A DNA stretch of 64,000 bases, taken from NCBI GenBank assembly GCA_030622545.1, contig JAUXGA010000006.1:62001-126000 (forward strand). The letters run 5' to 3'. The position numbers and the translations under genes were made by a program. Numbering within the stretch: the first letter of the stretch is position 1; each line of letters opens with the position of its first letter. Of the stretch, positions 3,176 to 12,327 are shown in pieces. The stretch is from a bacterium (lineage in GTDB: Bacteria > Electryoneota > RPQS01 > DYHQ01). The notes beneath the pieces are model-generated. The model saw nothing but the letters and a program-made list of their open reading frames with translations, made no database searches and was not told where the DNA came from.

Positions 3176-4876
3176 TCAGAAATTCCGCGTGCACCGCTGA
3201 ATTTCTTCAAGCGTCGTCACCCCATCCAGCGCTTTTTTCAACCCATCTATTCTCATCGTCTGAAAATGTTGACGCTTTGCGATTTGGCGAATTTTTTCCG
3301 GTGTAGAATCAATGAAAATCTGCTCGCGAATTTCATCCGTGACGACAAGCAGCTCGTGAATGGCGGTTCGCCCCCGACACCCTTCACCTTGGCACGCTTT
3401 GCACCCCTTTCCATGGAAGAAAACGAATGAGCTGTCCGGAGATAAACCGAAATCACGCAGGATTTCCGGTTTCGGCTGATGCTCCTCGATGCACTCCGGA
3501 CAGATGCGGCGCACGAGTCTCTGTGCCAAAACGCCAATTAAAGACGGCCCCACCCACACGGGGGGAATGCCCATGTTCACCAAACGCGGTATCGCTCCGA
3601 TGGCATCATTCGTATGAAGCGTACTCAGAACAAGGTGGCCGGTCAGTGCCGCTTCCGCCGCCACTCGACCCGTTTCCACATCGCGGATTTCTCCTACCAA
3701 AATAATATCCGGATCCTGACGCAAAATCGCTCGCAGCGCGTTAGCAAACGTGATTTCCCTGTCCGCATTCACCTGAATCTGATTAATCGATTCCTGGCGA
3801 TATTCGACGGGATTCTCGATGGTGACGATATTGACATCTTCCCGGTTCAGCTCTTTGAGAGCGGCGTAAAGCGTCGTTGTTTTCCCGCAGCCCGTCGGGC
3901 CGGTCACGAGAATGATGCCGTTCGGCTGGGCAATGAGTTTTTCGAAAATGGTCAGGTTCTCTTGCGAAAATCCCAACTCTCGCAGATGCAGGGACGTATC
4001 CTCCATGCGCAGGATACGCATCACGACTTTCTCTCCATTGATTGTCGGAATCGTGCTTGTTCGAATATCGAATTCAAGATCGCCCATCGTCAAACCAATG
4101 CGACCATCCTGCATGACGTTTCGTTCAAACATATCCATGCCGCTGCGATTCTTGACGACAGCCACGAGCGGCGCGGCAAGTTCCCGCGAGAAGCGAGCCA
4201 TCTCATGCAGCACTCCATCCAACCGATAGCGAACTCGAAAATAATCCTCCATGGGTTCGAGATGAATATCACTGGCTTTCTTTTTGATGGCTTTCCAGAA
4301 AAGAATTTCCGATAATTCGAAAAGGCTGGGCACTCTTTCCCGCAGTTGCTTCGGATTTAAACCTGCACTCTCCTTAAGTAAGGATTCCGCCTCGGAGACA
4401 TTAATGCGATTTTCGATTTCCGCGAAGGGAGTCTGCGAAAGCTCTCGACTCTTCACGGCATCCTGAAAATCCGTAAGCGTCGTCACCACGGGAACGATGG
4501 CGCGCCCAAGTTTGTCTTCGAGAGTTTTGAGTAGCGCCTCGTACGGCGGCCCGACGATAGCGACGGTGAGTTCTTCACCAATTTCGAAAACCGGCAAGAG
4601 ATGGAGCCGACGGCTCAGTTCCGCAGGTAAAACACCCGAGGGAGCCGTCGTGATTTCTTCGGTGATATCCATTCGCGGAATGACGAATGTCTCCGCGATG
4701 ACGTCTGCAAGGTCATCCTCGCGTATGAGGTTATGCGAGAGAAGATGGCCTGCCAGAGATGTCTCAAACTGCCGGGGATCGAGCTGCTCAGAGGCACGCT
4801 CGAGCTGCGCTGTGCTGACCAGCTTTCTTTCTGAAAGGGCTGCGGCAAGTATTTTGTCTTCCGAAACAAGGCTCAT
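3176..4876 (-). CDS. Type IV pilus/type II secretion assembly ATPase (PilB/GspE family)
   Basis: This is the hexameric cytoplasmic motor that powers pilin assembly. In order, the 566-residue protein shows an N-terminal GspE/MshEN domain (about 1-150), an N2 domain containing KKKASDIHLEP (198-208), Walker A GPTGCGKTTT (326-335), an Asp box TIENPVEY (352-359), Walker B DPDIILVGEIRD (388-399) and a His box HLVLSTLHTND (414-424). A tetracysteine zinc module follows (C459, C462, C492, C495). All catalytic motifs are intact and the length is normal. The start overlaps the stop of the zinc-ribbon gene by 4 bp (ATGA), which implies translational coupling. No retraction ATPase (PilT) is in the window. 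Confidence 0.93.
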   Translation of the reverse strand: MSLVSEDKILAAALSERKLVSTAQLERASEQLDPRQFETSLAGHLLSHNLIREDDLADVIAETFVIPRMDITEEITTAPSGVLPAELSRRLHLLPVFEIGEELTVAIVGPPYEALLKTLEDKLGRAIVPVVTTLTDFQDAVKSRELSQTPFAEIENRINVSEAESLLKESAGLNPKQLRERVPSLFELSEILFWKAIKKKASDIHLEPMEDYFRVRYRLDGVLHEMARFSRELAAPLVAVVKNRSGMDMFERNVMQDGRIGLTMGDLEFDIRTSTIPTINGEKVVMRILRMEDTSLHLRELGFSQENLTIFEKLIAQPNGIILVTGPTGCGKTTTLYAALKELNREDVNIVTIENPVEYRQESINQIQVNADREITFANALRAILRQDPDIILVGEIRDVETGRVAAEAALTGHLVLSTLHTNDAIGAIPRLVNMGIPPVWVGPSLIGVLAQRLVRRICPECIEEHQPKPEILRDFGLSPDSSFVFFHGKGCKACQGEGCRGRTAIHELLVVTDEIREQIFIDSTPEKIRQIAKRQHFQTMRIDGLKKALDGVTTLEEIQRCTRNF

Positions 4877-5229
4877 TTGGACTCCTTGCCGAAAAGTTTA
4901 TCCAAATCTTCCTGCTCGAGACTCTGCCGGGAACCGGCGACGTCGACTGTCTGACGACGGCGTTGATTGATTTTTTCCAATTGAGAAAGTTCTTCCGTTG
5001 AGAGAGAAGACGCGGACTCGTGCACGACGGGAGTAGCTTCTGTTTTTAGCGGTGTTGCATCTCGAGATTCGTTGCTGACAAGTTTTGTTCCGCACCCCCC
5101 GCAGAAAAGCGTTTCCGTTTCATTCGCGAAACCGCACTGCGAACAAAAGGCCACGATTGGGCGGCCGCAATTTTTACAATAATGTCGCTGCGGGAAGTTC
5201 GGAGTCCCGCAGTGCTTGCAGGAATTCAT
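4873..5229 (-). CDS. Double zinc-ribbon protein with FliM-like C-terminal peptide
   Basis: The protein has 118 residues. The N-terminal half holds eight cysteines in four CxxC pairs (C4/C7, C18/C21, C29/C32, C43/C46), i.e. two zinc ribbons. The C-terminal half is charged and probably disordered. It contains two peptides that resemble the CheY-binding N-terminus of FliM (pattern L-S-Q-x-E-I-D-x-L-L): LSTEELSQL at 76-84 and LEQEDLDKLF at 104-113. The gene overlaps both the CheY-like regulator upstream and the ATPase downstream by 4 bp each. An adaptor role between regulator and motor is my inference; the family itself I do not recognise. Confidence 0.75.
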   Translation of the reverse strand: MNSCKHCGTPNFPQRHYCKNCGRPIVAFCSQCGFANETETLFCGGCGTKLVSNESRDATPLKTEATPVVHESASSLSTEELSQLEKINQRRRQTVDVAGSRQSLEQEDLDKLFGKESK

Positions 5230-5621
5230 GACCGCGCTTCCTCATGCAGTTGCCAGCCGAGTTCCGACAGTACGTCGGAGATTTTCTCGCGCGTGAACGG
5301 CTTCAGGATGTAATGATCAGCTCCGATTTCCTTGACCTGCAGAATCTTCTCTGTATTGGCAAGAGAACTCAGAACAATCACTCGAGTATCCGCATTTTGT
5401 TCGCGAATCTTTGTCAGGACTTCGGTGCCGTTCATTCGCGGCATGATTTGATCAAGAAAAATGAGATTCGGCGATTCTTCCTTGAAAAGACGCCATCCTT
5501 CCTCGCCATCCGACGCTTCCATAATATCCGAAAATCCCAGTTTCTTAAGCGTCGTGCGCACTAAAAGCCGAACATGCATCGAATCCTCGATAAGGAGAAC
5601 TTTGGTTTCATGGGGTAACAT
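5226..5621 (-). CDS. CheY-like single-domain response regulator
   Basis: A stand-alone receiver domain of about 131 residues with no output domain. Numbered from the ATG at 5621, the acidic pocket is E12/D13, the phosphoacceptor is D57 (LIFLDQIMPRMNG), the switch Ser is S85 and the conserved Lys is K107 (ILKPF). All receiver residues are intact. An earlier ATG at 5642 is possible. I prefer 5621 because the receiver fold begins right after it and the overlap with the upstream kinase gene is smaller. It probably takes phosphate from that kinase and works by protein-protein contact; the next gene encodes a candidate partner. Confidence 0.88.
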   Translation of the reverse strand: MLPHETKVLLIEDSMHVRLLVRTTLKKLGFSDIMEASDGEEGWRLFKEESPNLIFLDQIMPRMNGTEVLTKIREQNADTRVIVLSSLANTEKILQVKEIGADHYILKPFTREKISDVLSELGWQLHEEARS

Positions 5622-6885
5622 AAGCCGCCTGCAGTGTTTCACTTTCTTCGTTTAACTCTTGAACAACCGATGGAAGGATTATCGTAAACGTCGATCCTTT
5701 TCCCATCTGACTTGTGACGTGAATCTTTCCTTGATGCTGTTCCACAATCTGTTTAGCGATGGCGAGTCCTAATCCCGTGGAGGACTCTCCTGCGGTTGGT
5801 TTAGCATATCCTTTGTGAAATTTCTGAAAGATTTTCTGAATTTCATCTTCGGGAACACCCTGACCTGTGTCTTGAACGGCAATTCGGAGGAAGCCGTCCT
5901 CTTTGCTGACATGTACAACGACGCTGCTGTCGGAGTGCGAGAATTTCGCCGCATTAGTCAGAAGATTCTCTAAGACCTGCGCAATCCTCTTTCTGTCAAA
6001 CACCCAGCTTTCCGGAGCCTCGTTCAAATTCAGTTGATAGTGGATTCTTTTTTGATTGAAAAGCAAATTCATCTGTGCGATGAGAGGTTCCAAGAACCGG
6101 CGCAGTTCAACATCCGCAGGATGAATTTCCACCCGACCATTCTCGATACTGGACAAATCAAGCAACTCGCTGAGCATCGTTAAAACTTCAGAAACAAGCG
6201 TCTTTGTATTTAAAAGAAAGCTCTTCGGCTCTTCGGCCAAATCTTTCAATTCCTCAATTAAGTAATCCGTGTACATCTCTACGGCGCTGACCGGATTGCG
6301 CAAATCATGTGCAACAATACCGACCATCTCATCTTTCAGATTGCTCAACTCCTCCAACTGCTGATTCTTTTGCTGAAGCTCCTGCGCGAGATCCCCGACT
6401 TGTTTGAACGCTCCCTTGTAGCTTATGGCGGCGACGGAGAGATTCTCATTCTTTTCTTTCAGTTCGCGGTGCAGCGTTGCCAATCGCACACCCGTCCGGA
6501 TGTTCGACAGAAATGTAAGACGATGATAGGGCAGAGTGATAAAATCATCAATTCCTGCTTTGAACGCCGCCGAAATCTCTTCCCATTGCGTTGAGGATGT
6601 CAGAAGCAAAGAGAACAACGTCTGTTCGGGAAACTCGTGGCGAAGCTTCAGGAAGGATTCGATCTCAGTAAGCGTATATGCCGGCTCGTAAAGAAGCAAA
6701 ACATCCACCGGAACATCTTTGAGAATCCTTCGGACGCCTCTCTCCGTTCTGCAGCAAATTACTCGCGAACCGGTGGGAGCGACATCTCGTCGGATTTGAT
6801 CCACCGCATCCGTTTTATCACCCACATAAAGAATCACCGCACGCTCAGACGGCCAACCTAATGATATAAAATCATCTTTTTCCAT
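5608..6885 (-). CDS. Sensor histidine kinase with degenerate receiver-like N-terminus
   Basis: The protein has 425 residues and no membrane segment. Residues 15-130 fold-match a receiver domain, but the strand that should end in the phosphoacceptor Asp reads VDVLLLYEPAY, with Tyr66/Glu67 at that place, so it is unlikely to be phosphorylated. A coiled coil (about 140-185) leads to the HisKA box IVAHDLRNPVSAV (H193). The HATPase domain has the N box (N307, N311), G1 DTGQG (339-343) and G2 GLGLAIAK (371-378). It sits between the secretin and the CheY-like regulator in the pilus operon. It would act as a cytoplasmic kinase for that regulator. Confidence 0.88.
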   Translation of the reverse strand: MEKDDFISLGWPSERAVILYVGDKTDAVDQIRRDVAPTGSRVICCRTERGVRRILKDVPVDVLLLYEPAYTLTEIESFLKLRHEFPEQTLFSLLLTSSTQWEEISAAFKAGIDDFITLPYHRLTFLSNIRTGVRLATLHRELKEKNENLSVAAISYKGAFKQVGDLAQELQQKNQQLEELSNLKDEMVGIVAHDLRNPVSAVEMYTDYLIEELKDLAEEPKSFLLNTKTLVSEVLTMLSELLDLSSIENGRVEIHPADVELRRFLEPLIAQMNLLFNQKRIHYQLNLNEAPESWVFDRKRIAQVLENLLTNAAKFSHSDSSVVVHVSKEDGFLRIAVQDTGQGVPEDEIQKIFQKFHKGYAKPTAGESSTGLGLAIAKQIVEQHQGKIHVTSQMGKGSTFTIILPSVVQELNEESETLQAAYVTP

Positions 6886-9035: not shown

Positions 9036-10511
9036 TTATTTATCACTGCTTAAAGGAATTGTCAACGCAAACGAATAAACAGTTCGCCGCCCGAGCTCTT
9101 GCGTTGCTACAGACATCAACCGGGCTCCGCTTAGTATTCTCGCAATGTCATCCACGCGTTCGCGCCTGAGTGCCACACCGGAAACCGTCATGTCACTATA
9201 AGACCAGTCTAAATCCGTCAGCCAGAAATTTCCGATCTTTCGACCTCGCATACACAGCGTGTCCAGCACCGGTTCGAGCGGTTTCGTTGTCGAGAGCAGC
9301 GAATCGAGCGTCTTGTTCTGCGTGACTGCTTCGCGAGGCTGCGCCCGATAGCTGTTCTGTTCCATCATCTGGCTTCGTGTCATTTCCTGAAGCTTGACAA
9401 TTTGAGTTGTGAGCACGCTGAATTCTCGCGATTGCCGCAGATACTTTGCCGTGGAAACACCGCCCATGAGCAGCGCAAATAACACGAGAGCAATCCCGGC
9501 GATACTGAGCTCAAGAAGCACTCGACTGCGCCCTGCAGAATCCTTGAGCTTCGGAACAGGATAGAATCTCGGATCTCCACGGGACAGAGCCTTCGCCGCT
9601 AACGTGACCGGAATGACAAACGCTTCCTTAGAATCCGTCGAGGCAATCTTGTCATCCCACGAAAATATCGAAAGAGCTTTCACTCTCGCGCTCGGAAATT
9701 CCTTTTTTAGAAAGAGCTCAATCAGCGCTTTTTCCCACGTACCTGACAGCAGAAATGTGCTTGTTTCCCGGAACGCACTTTCGCCAAGCAGCGGTTCATG
9801 GACAGCCTCCTCCCATGAACCCGGCGGCAGAGTTATCCAGATATGAAGATTCCTACCCTTCAGTTGAACAAGATGACTGCCATTACCGTCGCGATGGAGA
9901 AGCGTGACGATGTCATCTGTTTCCGGATGCGAGTACAGCGCAATCGCATCCAATAGACAGACACGGGGGTCTTCCCTGAGCCGAATCGGAAGCCGATTTT
10001 CGCCTGCGAGATTCGCGGCTTCCTGAAAAAGCTCCTGCAACGGAGAAACTTCCGAAAAAAACAGAACCCAATCGTTCTCGCTCTCACCTGAAAAAACCCG
10101 CGGCGTTTCCTTCCCTGTAAGCTCGATTCCCCGCTGCCTTGCCCACGAAAACCATTCGTCTTTCCTTTTCGGTTGCTCGCTGCTCGGAAACGCGATGAAC
10201 TCCGATGGCGACGTATCTGATGCAAGCGCAAAAACGTCATCACTTCTTCCATAGCGTTCGAGCAAGTCGAGCGACACCTGAATATTCGACTGCCCGCTTG
10301 AAGACGTCTGCCCCGCTTTTAGAAGAGAATCAATGCCGAAAGGATCCTCTGCAGCCGCTAACGGGGCAGCCGGATTTGCACTCAGAGGTTCATTTAAAAT
10401 CCGCGTATCCGCCGCTTCTACCCGAAAGTTCCCCTGCTCGCGGCGCACAACCGCGAAACGCAGGGTTTGTCCTTCTAAATAGATTCCGATAGCGCGTTTC
10501 GTCTTCGGCAA
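9036..10511 (-). CDS. PilM-PilN-like fusion protein (GspL-like architecture)
   Basis: The protein has 491 residues. The first 320 residues are soluble and begin with an actin-like strand pattern (AIGIYLEGQTLRFAVVRR) as in PilM and the cytoplasmic domain of GspL. A single membrane helix follows (about 332-352), then a coiled coil (355-385) and a C-terminal PilN-like periplasmic domain (WLTDLDWSYSDMTVSGVAL at about 428-446). PilM and PilN are usually two genes, and GspL of type II systems has the fused layout seen here. It lies between PilC/GspF and the PilO-P fusion. The role is assembly-platform scaffolding. Homology is weak but topology and position agree. Confidence 0.7.
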   Translation of the reverse strand: MPKTKRAIGIYLEGQTLRFAVVRREQGNFRVEAADTRILNEPLSANPAAPLAAAEDPFGIDSLLKAGQTSSSGQSNIQVSLDLLERYGRSDDVFALASDTSPSEFIAFPSSEQPKRKDEWFSWARQRGIELTGKETPRVFSGESENDWVLFFSEVSPLQELFQEAANLAGENRLPIRLREDPRVCLLDAIALYSHPETDDIVTLLHRDGNGSHLVQLKGRNLHIWITLPPGSWEEAVHEPLLGESAFRETSTFLLSGTWEKALIELFLKKEFPSARVKALSIFSWDDKIASTDSKEAFVIPVTLAAKALSRGDPRFYPVPKLKDSAGRSRVLLELSIAGIALVLFALLMGGVSTAKYLRQSREFSVLTTQIVKLQEMTRSQMMEQNSYRAQPREAVTQNKTLDSLLSTTKPLEPVLDTLCMRGRKIGNFWLTDLDWSYSDMTVSGVALRRERVDDIARILSGARLMSVATQELGRRTVYSFALTIPLSSDK

Positions 10512-10556: not shown

Positions 10557-11918
10557 TCAGGGCGCTGAAACGGCTCTCGTCTCATTAACACCGGGCATAT
10601 TCGGTTGAATCACGGCTGTTTCACTGGAAATAATCGTCAGCGCCGTCATCACAACCGTAATCAAAACTGCAACGCTGACTTGAATCCAGTCAATCACAGC
10701 CCTCATCCGATAGCTCGAATCTTTCTCGTAGTAGTTGGCGATTTGCAGACTCGACTTTCTCAACGTCCCGGAGGCTTCACCCGCGCGAAACCGTGCGAGC
10801 ACGTTCTGATTAAAAACACCCGATTTCTCAAGCGCCTCCACAAATCCCAGTCCGTGTTTCTCAATCAGCGGAATCGAACGAGATTTGATTCGCTCTTCCA
10901 GATAACGATTCTGGCACGCTTCCGAAGCAATGCGAATCGCTTCTATGTTCCCCGCCGCACCTCGATACAGCGCGTGAAACATACGGCACCAGATTTCAAT
11001 TGACGCCTTTTCAAAAAGCGGTCCAAGAATGGGCAAACGCAAGAGCCATCGGTCGCGCGCCAACTGTCCCTTTGTCGTTAAAAAAAATCGACCACTTCCG
11101 ATGATGCCTATCGCTCCCAAAGCGAGAAAGAGCAGAAGATAATCTCCGATAAACCTTGAGAGCGCGAGTGTTGTGTTCGTCATCGGCGGCAAGGGAATGT
11201 CGAAACGCTCATACATCGCTGCGAATTCGGGAAAGATATAACCCACGTAGAAAACAACGGCTCCGAAAAGTACCACCAGAGTAATCGTCGGCATCAATAG
11301 AGCTGACTTCATGCTCTTTCGAAACGCCTGCTTCCGTTCGATAAACTTGGCTGCGCTTTCGAAAACTTCTGGCAAGTTATCCGATGTCGAAGCGATGGCG
11401 AACATCTGCGCGGGGAAGCGCCCCAACACGTCCGGATGTTTTCCGAAGACCTCGCGTCCGCTCTTTCCTTCGCGAAGATCATGAACGATTTCTTCCAACG
11501 CTCCCCTTAAGCGAGGATGTTTCACCTCGCTCTGCAGAAGCTCAACCGCTTCATCAAGGGGAATTTTCTCGCGTAAAAGATCCGCGCAGAGCCGGACAAA
11601 TAACACGACTTCTTCGGTCGGAGGCCGATGACGAACAGGCAGCCATCGCCGCATTACCCGAAAGTGCGTGTAGCCCCGATGACGCAGATACTCCTCCACC
11701 TGAGCCCTATCGGTAGCTGATCGTTCACCCTCGATAGGCAGGCTTTTATCCCGCCACGCCCGATAGAGAAAAACCGACTCCTTCGGTGAGAGATGAAGTG
11801 TGTTCCTGCGAGTTTGCTGATTGGCTTCCTGCACCGCTCGCCGTAAACGGGAAACAAGTGATACTCTCCGGGGGCGTTTGGGATTCGGAGCTAACTTCCT
11901 CTGTTGAACATCAGACAT
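10557..11918 (-). CDS. Pilus assembly inner-membrane platform protein (PilC/GspF family)
   Basis: The protein has 453 residues. The N-terminal 95 residues are basic and atypical for the family. Two T2SF domains follow, each with four-helix-bundle signatures: the first around FVRLCADLLREKIPLDEAV and SGREVFGKHPDVLGRFPA, the second around ARFRAGEASGTLRKS. Three membrane segments lie near residues 205-230, 258-275 and 408-432, as expected for GspF. The protein docks on the ATPase and on PilM-P-like proteins in the inner membrane. The gene follows the pilin-like gene by 13 bp. Confidence 0.92.
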   Translation of the reverse strand: MSDVQQRKLAPNPKRPRRVSLVSRLRRAVQEANQQTRRNTLHLSPKESVFLYRAWRDKSLPIEGERSATDRAQVEEYLRHRGYTHFRVMRRWLPVRHRPPTEEVVLFVRLCADLLREKIPLDEAVELLQSEVKHPRLRGALEEIVHDLREGKSGREVFGKHPDVLGRFPAQMFAIASTSDNLPEVFESAAKFIERKQAFRKSMKSALLMPTITLVVLFGAVVFYVGYIFPEFAAMYERFDIPLPPMTNTTLALSRFIGDYLLLFLALGAIGIIGSGRFFLTTKGQLARDRWLLRLPILGPLFEKASIEIWCRMFHALYRGAAGNIEAIRIASEACQNRYLEERIKSRSIPLIEKHGLGFVEALEKSGVFNQNVLARFRAGEASGTLRKSSLQIANYYEKDSSYRMRAVIDWIQVSVAVLITVVMTALTIISSETAVIQPNMPGVNETRAVSAP

Positions 11919-11931
11919 GTAGACAGCGGAA

Positions 11932-12327
11932 TCAGTATTTCACTTCAGTCTGAATGTCATCCGGTGTCACCGTGCAAACCACTTCGATCGGTTGGCCGCT
12001 CGACTTCTTGGCGAGTCCGCAATCACCGGTGATTTCGACTGTTGCCGAGTCGATAACACTCAAACTGATTTGCGTGCCGATAGGACTGTCTTTTCCTCCG
12101 GTCAAGTAATCCAGAGTGAGACCCGTGAATTTCTGATCTCCTCCTCCCATACTCGTCGGTTTGAGATAATACTGATGAGCGACACTCCCCAATTCAACCA
12201 CCTCGTTCACCACCATATCGATGTTGGATTTTTCGGCGTTTTTGTTAAAAATACCAATACCAACAACGATGGACGTGCCGACGATAATGACGGCGAGGAC
12301 CAGTAGAAGAAGCTGTTGCTGACCCAT
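11932..12327 (-). CDS. Putative major pilin-like subunit with atypical leader
   Basis: The protein has 131 residues. It starts MGQQQLLLLVLAVIIVG, a hydrophobic helix beginning at residue 5, followed by a charged spine (NKNAEKSNIDMVVNEV) and a small globular domain with two cysteines about 20 residues apart that could form a disulfide loop. Being the first gene of the pilus operon, short, and built as one helix plus a head domain, it fits the major pilin. However, the usual G-(F/M)-T-L-(I/V)-E processing site and the Glu at mature position 5 are absent. A good ribosome binding site (AGAAAGGA) lies 7 bp upstream of the ATG. Confidence 0.65.
   Translation of the reverse strand: MGQQQLLLLVLAVIIVGTSIVVGIGIFNKNAEKSNIDMVVNEVVELGSVAHQYYLKPTSMGGGDQKFTGLTLDYLTGGKDSPIGTQISLSVIDSATVEITGDCGLAKKSSGQPIEVVCTVTPDDIQTEVKY

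Follow-up and report, generated by a model that had tools for sequence, protein, structure and literature searches.

A double-zinc-ribbon protein with a FliM-like C-terminal peptide, a candidate adaptor between a CheY-like regulator and a PilB-type pilus ATPase

We analysed a stretch of 64,000 nucleotides (the window) from a bacterium of the phylum Electryoneota (assembly GCA_030622545.1, contig JAUXGA010000006.1, positions 62,001 to 126,000). On its minus strand, at 3176-6885, the ORF list places four genes in the transcription order histidine kinase (HK), CheY-like response regulator (RR), zinc-ribbon protein (ZnR) and PilB-type ATPase. Neighbouring genes overlap by 14 bp (HK/RR), 4 bp (RR/ZnR, 5226-5229) and 4 bp (ZnR/PilB, 4873-4876), and each of the 4-bp overlaps reads ATGA. 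An initial annotation of the window had drawn attention to two peptides in ZnR, and its ORF coordinates, both 4-bp overlaps and the peptide positions (residues 104-113 and 76-84) were found correct on recheck. The features are as follows.

5608-6885, minus strand: histidine kinase, 425 aa, HisKA and HATPase_c (ORF and domain search)
5226-5621, minus strand: single-domain CheY-like response regulator (RR), 131 aa, Response_reg at 1.5e-27 (Pfam)
4873-5229, minus strand: ZnR, candidate adaptor, 118 aa, double zinc ribbon followed by a disordered linker and two helices
5092-5220, minus strand: double zinc ribbon of ZnR, residues 4-46, with four CxxC
4978-5004, minus strand: internal ZnR peptide LSTEELSQL, residues 76-84
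4891-4920, minus strand: C-terminal FliM-like ZnR peptide LEQEDLDKLF, residues 104-113
3176-4876, minus strand: PilB/GspE-type assembly ATPase with MshEN N-domain, 566 aa
6914-8113, minus strand: secretin of the same pilus-like system (domain search)
9036-10511, minus strand: probable PilM/PilN-like fusion (weak match, PilN 0.11)
10557-11918, minus strand: PilC/GspF platform protein (domain search)
11932-12327, minus strand: pilin-like 131-aa protein, named for its position and N-terminal hydrophobic segment, with no family match

The RR frame may begin at a GTG (5226-5642) or at an ATG (5226-5621; MLPHETK...), and the ATG is the more likely start. Upstream of its kinase domains, the HK carries an N-terminus that we read as a degenerate, receiver-like domain. 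The ATPase matches T2SSE (1e-121) and MshEN (4e-9) in Pfam and scores under the curated PilB equivalog cut-off. Searches of this genome found three PilB/GspE-type proteins in all, this ATPase among them. With genes named by eye, one of the remaining two sits in a canonical pilB-pilT-pilC cluster and one in a GspE/GspF-like cluster; the window ATPase is part of a third system, which has a secretin and a platform protein of its own. Elsewhere in the window, a short minus-strand ORF (537-917) resembles by eye the N-terminal part of an IS-type transposase and is probably a remnant.

ZnR consists of a DZR domain (PF12773, 7e-9 in Pfam) and a 72-residue tail. The single-chain AlphaFold model, of low confidence (mean pLDDT 61), shows a disordered linker followed by helices at residues 78-94 and 107-112. 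We scored the tail with a position-specific matrix (PSSM) built from FliM N-termini, against a background of 142,377 10-mers. LEQEDLDKLF was equalled or beaten by 4.2e-5 of the background 10-mers, which amounts to about 0.3% once the length of the tail is allowed for. By itself, the window peptide is thus a modest event, and the question rests on its homologues. It is worth noting that the window copy departs from FliM in its E at position 2 and F at position 10, and scores below many of its relatives.

A search of 386 genomes with the single ZnR sequence gave one distant match covering the peptide, in genome G161 (E 8.7e-15, residues 4-113), where ZnR stands directly before PilB and a bare CheY-like receiver is also present. 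Profiles built from the window and G161 proteins recovered 15 further loci and then seven more, bringing the set to 24 including the window. The 23 additional genes belong to nine other families, all outside the phylum of the window (10 families in total), and no orthologue was found in 38 other genomes of that phylum. The module is sparse, occurring in 1 of 39 genomes of the window's phylum and in 2 of the 386 genomes of the broad sample; it is commoner among relatives of G161 and G724. The 24 loci come mostly from relatives of one lineage, and counts over them are not independent because of this kinship.

Across the 24 proteins, the tails are variable apart from the two helices, and the terminal one follows the consensus [VLIFM]-[ST]-Q-[DE]-x-[IL]-D-x-[LI]-F, as in VSQDDIDTLF, FGQDDIDALF, VSQEEIDKLF and LSQDALDELF. 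Gln3, Ile/Leu6 and an aliphatic residue at position 9 occur in all 24, Phe10 in 20, and position 7 is always Asp, Glu or Asn (Asp in 19). All 19 members scanned gave a DZR match, and Gln3 is the sole invariant residue outside the zinc ribbon. In every ZnR, the aligned terminal segment is the top FliM-PSSM 10-mer of the tail. The claim of the initial annotation that LEQEDLDKLF resembles the CheY-binding peptide of FliM is thus borne out, since the diagnostic Gln and the Asp-type position are kept in all 24 genes, 22 of which stand next to a CheY-like regulator. Lack of conservation among orthologues, which that annotation had given as a ground for refutation, was looked for and not seen. Its parallel claim for LSTEELSQL is not supported, and we rejected this peptide as a second FliM-like site. 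The window helix at 76-84 has an amphipathic pattern that is conserved in homologues, without Gln3 or Asp7, and its score is close to chance (5e-4 per 10-mer in the window; 1e-3 to 1e-2 in most homologues).

The terminal peptide might instead be a generic amphipathic helix that resembles FliM by chance, and the window copy taken alone, as a 0.3% event with non-FliM residues, would allow this reading. Double-zinc-ribbon proteins not linked to PilB gave background scores with one clear exception among about 34 control rows, and that unlinked protein scores comparably to the window peptide. Against chance stand a Gln that never varies and an Asp that is conserved, each at a set position in 10 families, the constant placement of the peptide close to the C-terminus, and the fact that 13 of the 24 peptides outscore all 142,377 background 10-mers. 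We regard a chance likeness as highly improbable, and the conservation of the peptide appears largely to rule it out. The exceptional control is a 438-aa double-zinc-ribbon protein (L326, G072:C63, 400-1713, minus strand) found by ZnR similarity alone, with LFQDEIEKSL after the ribbons and a FliM-like score equal to that of the window peptide.

The gene neighbourhood is conserved as well. ZnR lies immediately 5' of a PilB-type ATPase gene in all 24 loci, with spacing from a 4-bp overlap to a 54-bp gap, and a gene for a single-domain CheY-like receiver adjoins the ATPase or ZnR in 22. The usual order is ZnR-PilB-RR, and that of the window is RR-ZnR-PilB with the kinase in front; that the set is kept together despite the changed order points to a functional association. 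The initial annotation had proposed a pathway from kinase to regulator to ZnR to PilB. The linkage of peptide, regulator and PilB in this scheme is conserved, but of the 24 loci the window alone has a kinase gene next to the set, so that the step from this kinase to this regulator is a local inference. A different kinase-ATPase linkage is seen at L017, L018, L021 and L026 of the window's phylum, where open frames for sensor kinases lie just 5' of PilB. At L249 (G570:C29), the module PilB is split over two reading frames (151 and 388 aa), reflecting a frameshift or an assembly error.

The regulators retain the features of a phosphorylatable CheY: an acidic pocket, the phospho-Asp, and equivalents of Thr/Ser87 and Lys109. 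The window RR has D13, D57, S85, K107 and Y104 (Y106 of E. coli CheY), Response_reg is its sole domain above cut-off, with no PATAN domain, and CheY proteins rank high, and form the majority, among its best PDB matches in a sequence search. All aligned module regulators have the equivalents of D13, D57 and K109, together with a Tyr equivalent to CheY Tyr106 in the conserved strand Y-[IL]-L-K-P-[FY]. As a group they are closely knit: with a profile of their own, applied to three module genomes, they reach 164-202 bits, and no other receiver there exceeds 110. No regulator of this type was found in G793, G800 or G737, which belong to one genus (L299, L300 and L301, respectively); ZnR and its peptide are kept in G793 and G800. 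Both of these genomes have, after PilB, an additional short double zinc ribbon that lacks a tail, and G737 has a short double zinc ribbon only, with no ZnR match. In G724, the ATPase and receiver genes are separated by a CheX gene (PF13690, 4e-16; L259, G724:C103, 3975-4478, minus strand). CheX proteins are CheY-P phosphatases.

The strict linkage of ZnR to PilB (24 of 24), set beside the two loci that have the peptide and lack the regulator, could also mean that PilB, or some other part of the pilus machinery, is the docking partner of the C-terminal helix. ZnR would then be a PilB assembly factor or chaperone, its likeness to FliM would be convergent, and the regulator would act directly on PilB in the manner of PATAN-CheY proteins; for one of these, PixE, direct contact with PilB1 is reported in Synechocystis (PMC7690835, citing doi 10.1093/pcp/pcz194). 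However, distant homologues keep the exact FliM positions Q3, I/L6, D7 and L9, and a CheY-type regulator adjoins in 22 of the 24 loci. We consider this second-best reading unlikely. The alternative that we favour, and judge probable from conservation and gene linkage, is that ZnR is an adaptor dedicated to PilB whose FliM-type tail catches the phosphorylated CheY-like regulator.

In flagellated members of the phylum to which the window belongs, the FliM peptide reads LSQDEIDALL or LTQEEIDALL. No FliM/FliN homologue was found in 14 of the 24 module genomes, including that of the window; 10 of these 14 have a completeness of 90% or more and a contamination of 5% or less. The ZnR peptide is therefore neither leakage from the flagellar system nor in competition with a flagellar switch. 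A search of the window's genome for PF01052 (FliMN_C) found none, and FliM was rejected as the source of the motif there; ZnR itself is not a FliM, since it lacks the FliM middle and FliMN_C (PF01052) domains. Two other matches to the FliM pattern in this genome were judged coincidental: by our reading, LGQVELDDLL lies in a core segment of an SPFH/stomatin-like protein and LPENEIDELL in an anti-sigma-like tail. In addition, large TPR proteins unrelated to ZnR, at L082 (G030:C47), L221 (G033:C34) and L080 (G036:C209), carry as many as four copies of a FliM-like peptide in acidic, disordered linkers (LNQSDLDALLAQF, MNQGDLDALMASF, MGQSDLDSLLASF, LNQDDLNALLESF).

In the maximum-likelihood tree, all the ZnR-linked PilBs that it contains, that of the window included, share one side of a branch with support 99/96, separate from the other PilBs of the window's phylum (100/100 in a narrower set). 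A very long branch (2.1) leads to the window PilB and makes its placement less firm. Shared descent with the ZnR-linked PilBs, via transfer or ancient retention, is suggested by these sequences as likely but not secure. A scan of genome contigs with PilB gave mainly PilBs of Saccharibacteria and was uninformative.

The FliM N-terminal peptide fits a groove of CheY helices 4 and 5 and provides high-affinity capture in a two-step process (PMC9126983). By analogy, the double zinc ribbon may anchor ZnR on PilB, and the flexible tail, ending in an amphipathic FliM-type helix, would capture the neighbouring RR once it is phosphorylated. We infer such capture because both peptide and regulator are conserved. 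It would raise the local concentration of phosphorylated RR at the ATPase and could change the activity or location of PilB, in a way similar to the initial capture of CheY-P by the N-terminus of FliM for the flagellar switch. In the window, the coupled histidine kinase would supply the signal; other lineages would receive it from kinases encoded elsewhere. Overall, we lean towards the broader proposal that this conserved three-gene unit applies the flagellar principle of CheY-P capture to the extension motors of type IV pili, also in bacteria without a flagellar switch.

The module might also set the position of PilB rather than its rate, with ZnR-bound phosphorylated RR recruiting PilB to a pole or to the machine and leaving ATPase activity unchanged. 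A protein as small as ZnR, with its two flexible helices, would be a suitable scaffold for such recruitment, and in Pseudomonas PilG controls the polar localisation of PilB, with no PilG-PilB contact reported (PMC11656802, PMC12632253). When the loci were read and their genes assigned by eye, no gene for a polar hub was recognised in linkage with the module, and we hold an effect on position alone to be improbable, somewhat more so than direct action of the regulator.

The proposed capture of the regulator by ZnR shares several elements with known systems. Like FliM/FliY with their EIDALL motif, ZnR has a flexible tail that bears a Q-x-[DE]-[IL]-D-x-L-[LF] helix, its presumed partner is a single-domain CheY, and one module includes a CheX-type phosphatase. 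Unlike in FliM/FliY, the peptide is C-terminal, sits on a double zinc ribbon without FliM middle or C-ring domains, is linked to a pilus ATPase and occurs in genomes without flagellar switch genes. The PATAN-CheY systems (PixE, PixG and LsiR with cyanobacterial PilB1) are similar in that a CheY-like receiver controls an extension ATPase, and their regulators are considered to act directly on PilB (PMC7690835); there the regulator bears the output domain, whereas the ZnR module pairs a bare receiver with a separate adaptor that carries the docking peptide. The PilG and PilH proteins of the Pseudomonas Pil-Chp system are likewise single-domain CheY-like regulators that control PilB, but no ZnR is known there. 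FimX/PilZ and MglA/SgmX resemble ZnR in its proposed role as accessory proteins acting on PilB and differ in their input (c-di-GMP or a GTPase) and in their unrelated protein architecture. That CheY-like proteins control PilB is already known in outline, and the zinc-ribbon adaptor with a FliM-type tail appears to be new: in the open full-text literature searched, we found no description of it or of a ZnR-PilB-CheY module.

A 2024 review noted that no interaction between PilG or PilH and PilB has been reported and asked whether other modulators mediate (PMC11656802). For other bacteria, the module offers a compact candidate answer to the question of how a CheY-like regulator gains access to the pilus extension ATPase, namely through an adaptor of 120 residues that has a CheY-docking peptide of known type and is encoded beside its regulator and motor. 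If this is true, one short peptide would wire CheY to two unrelated motors.
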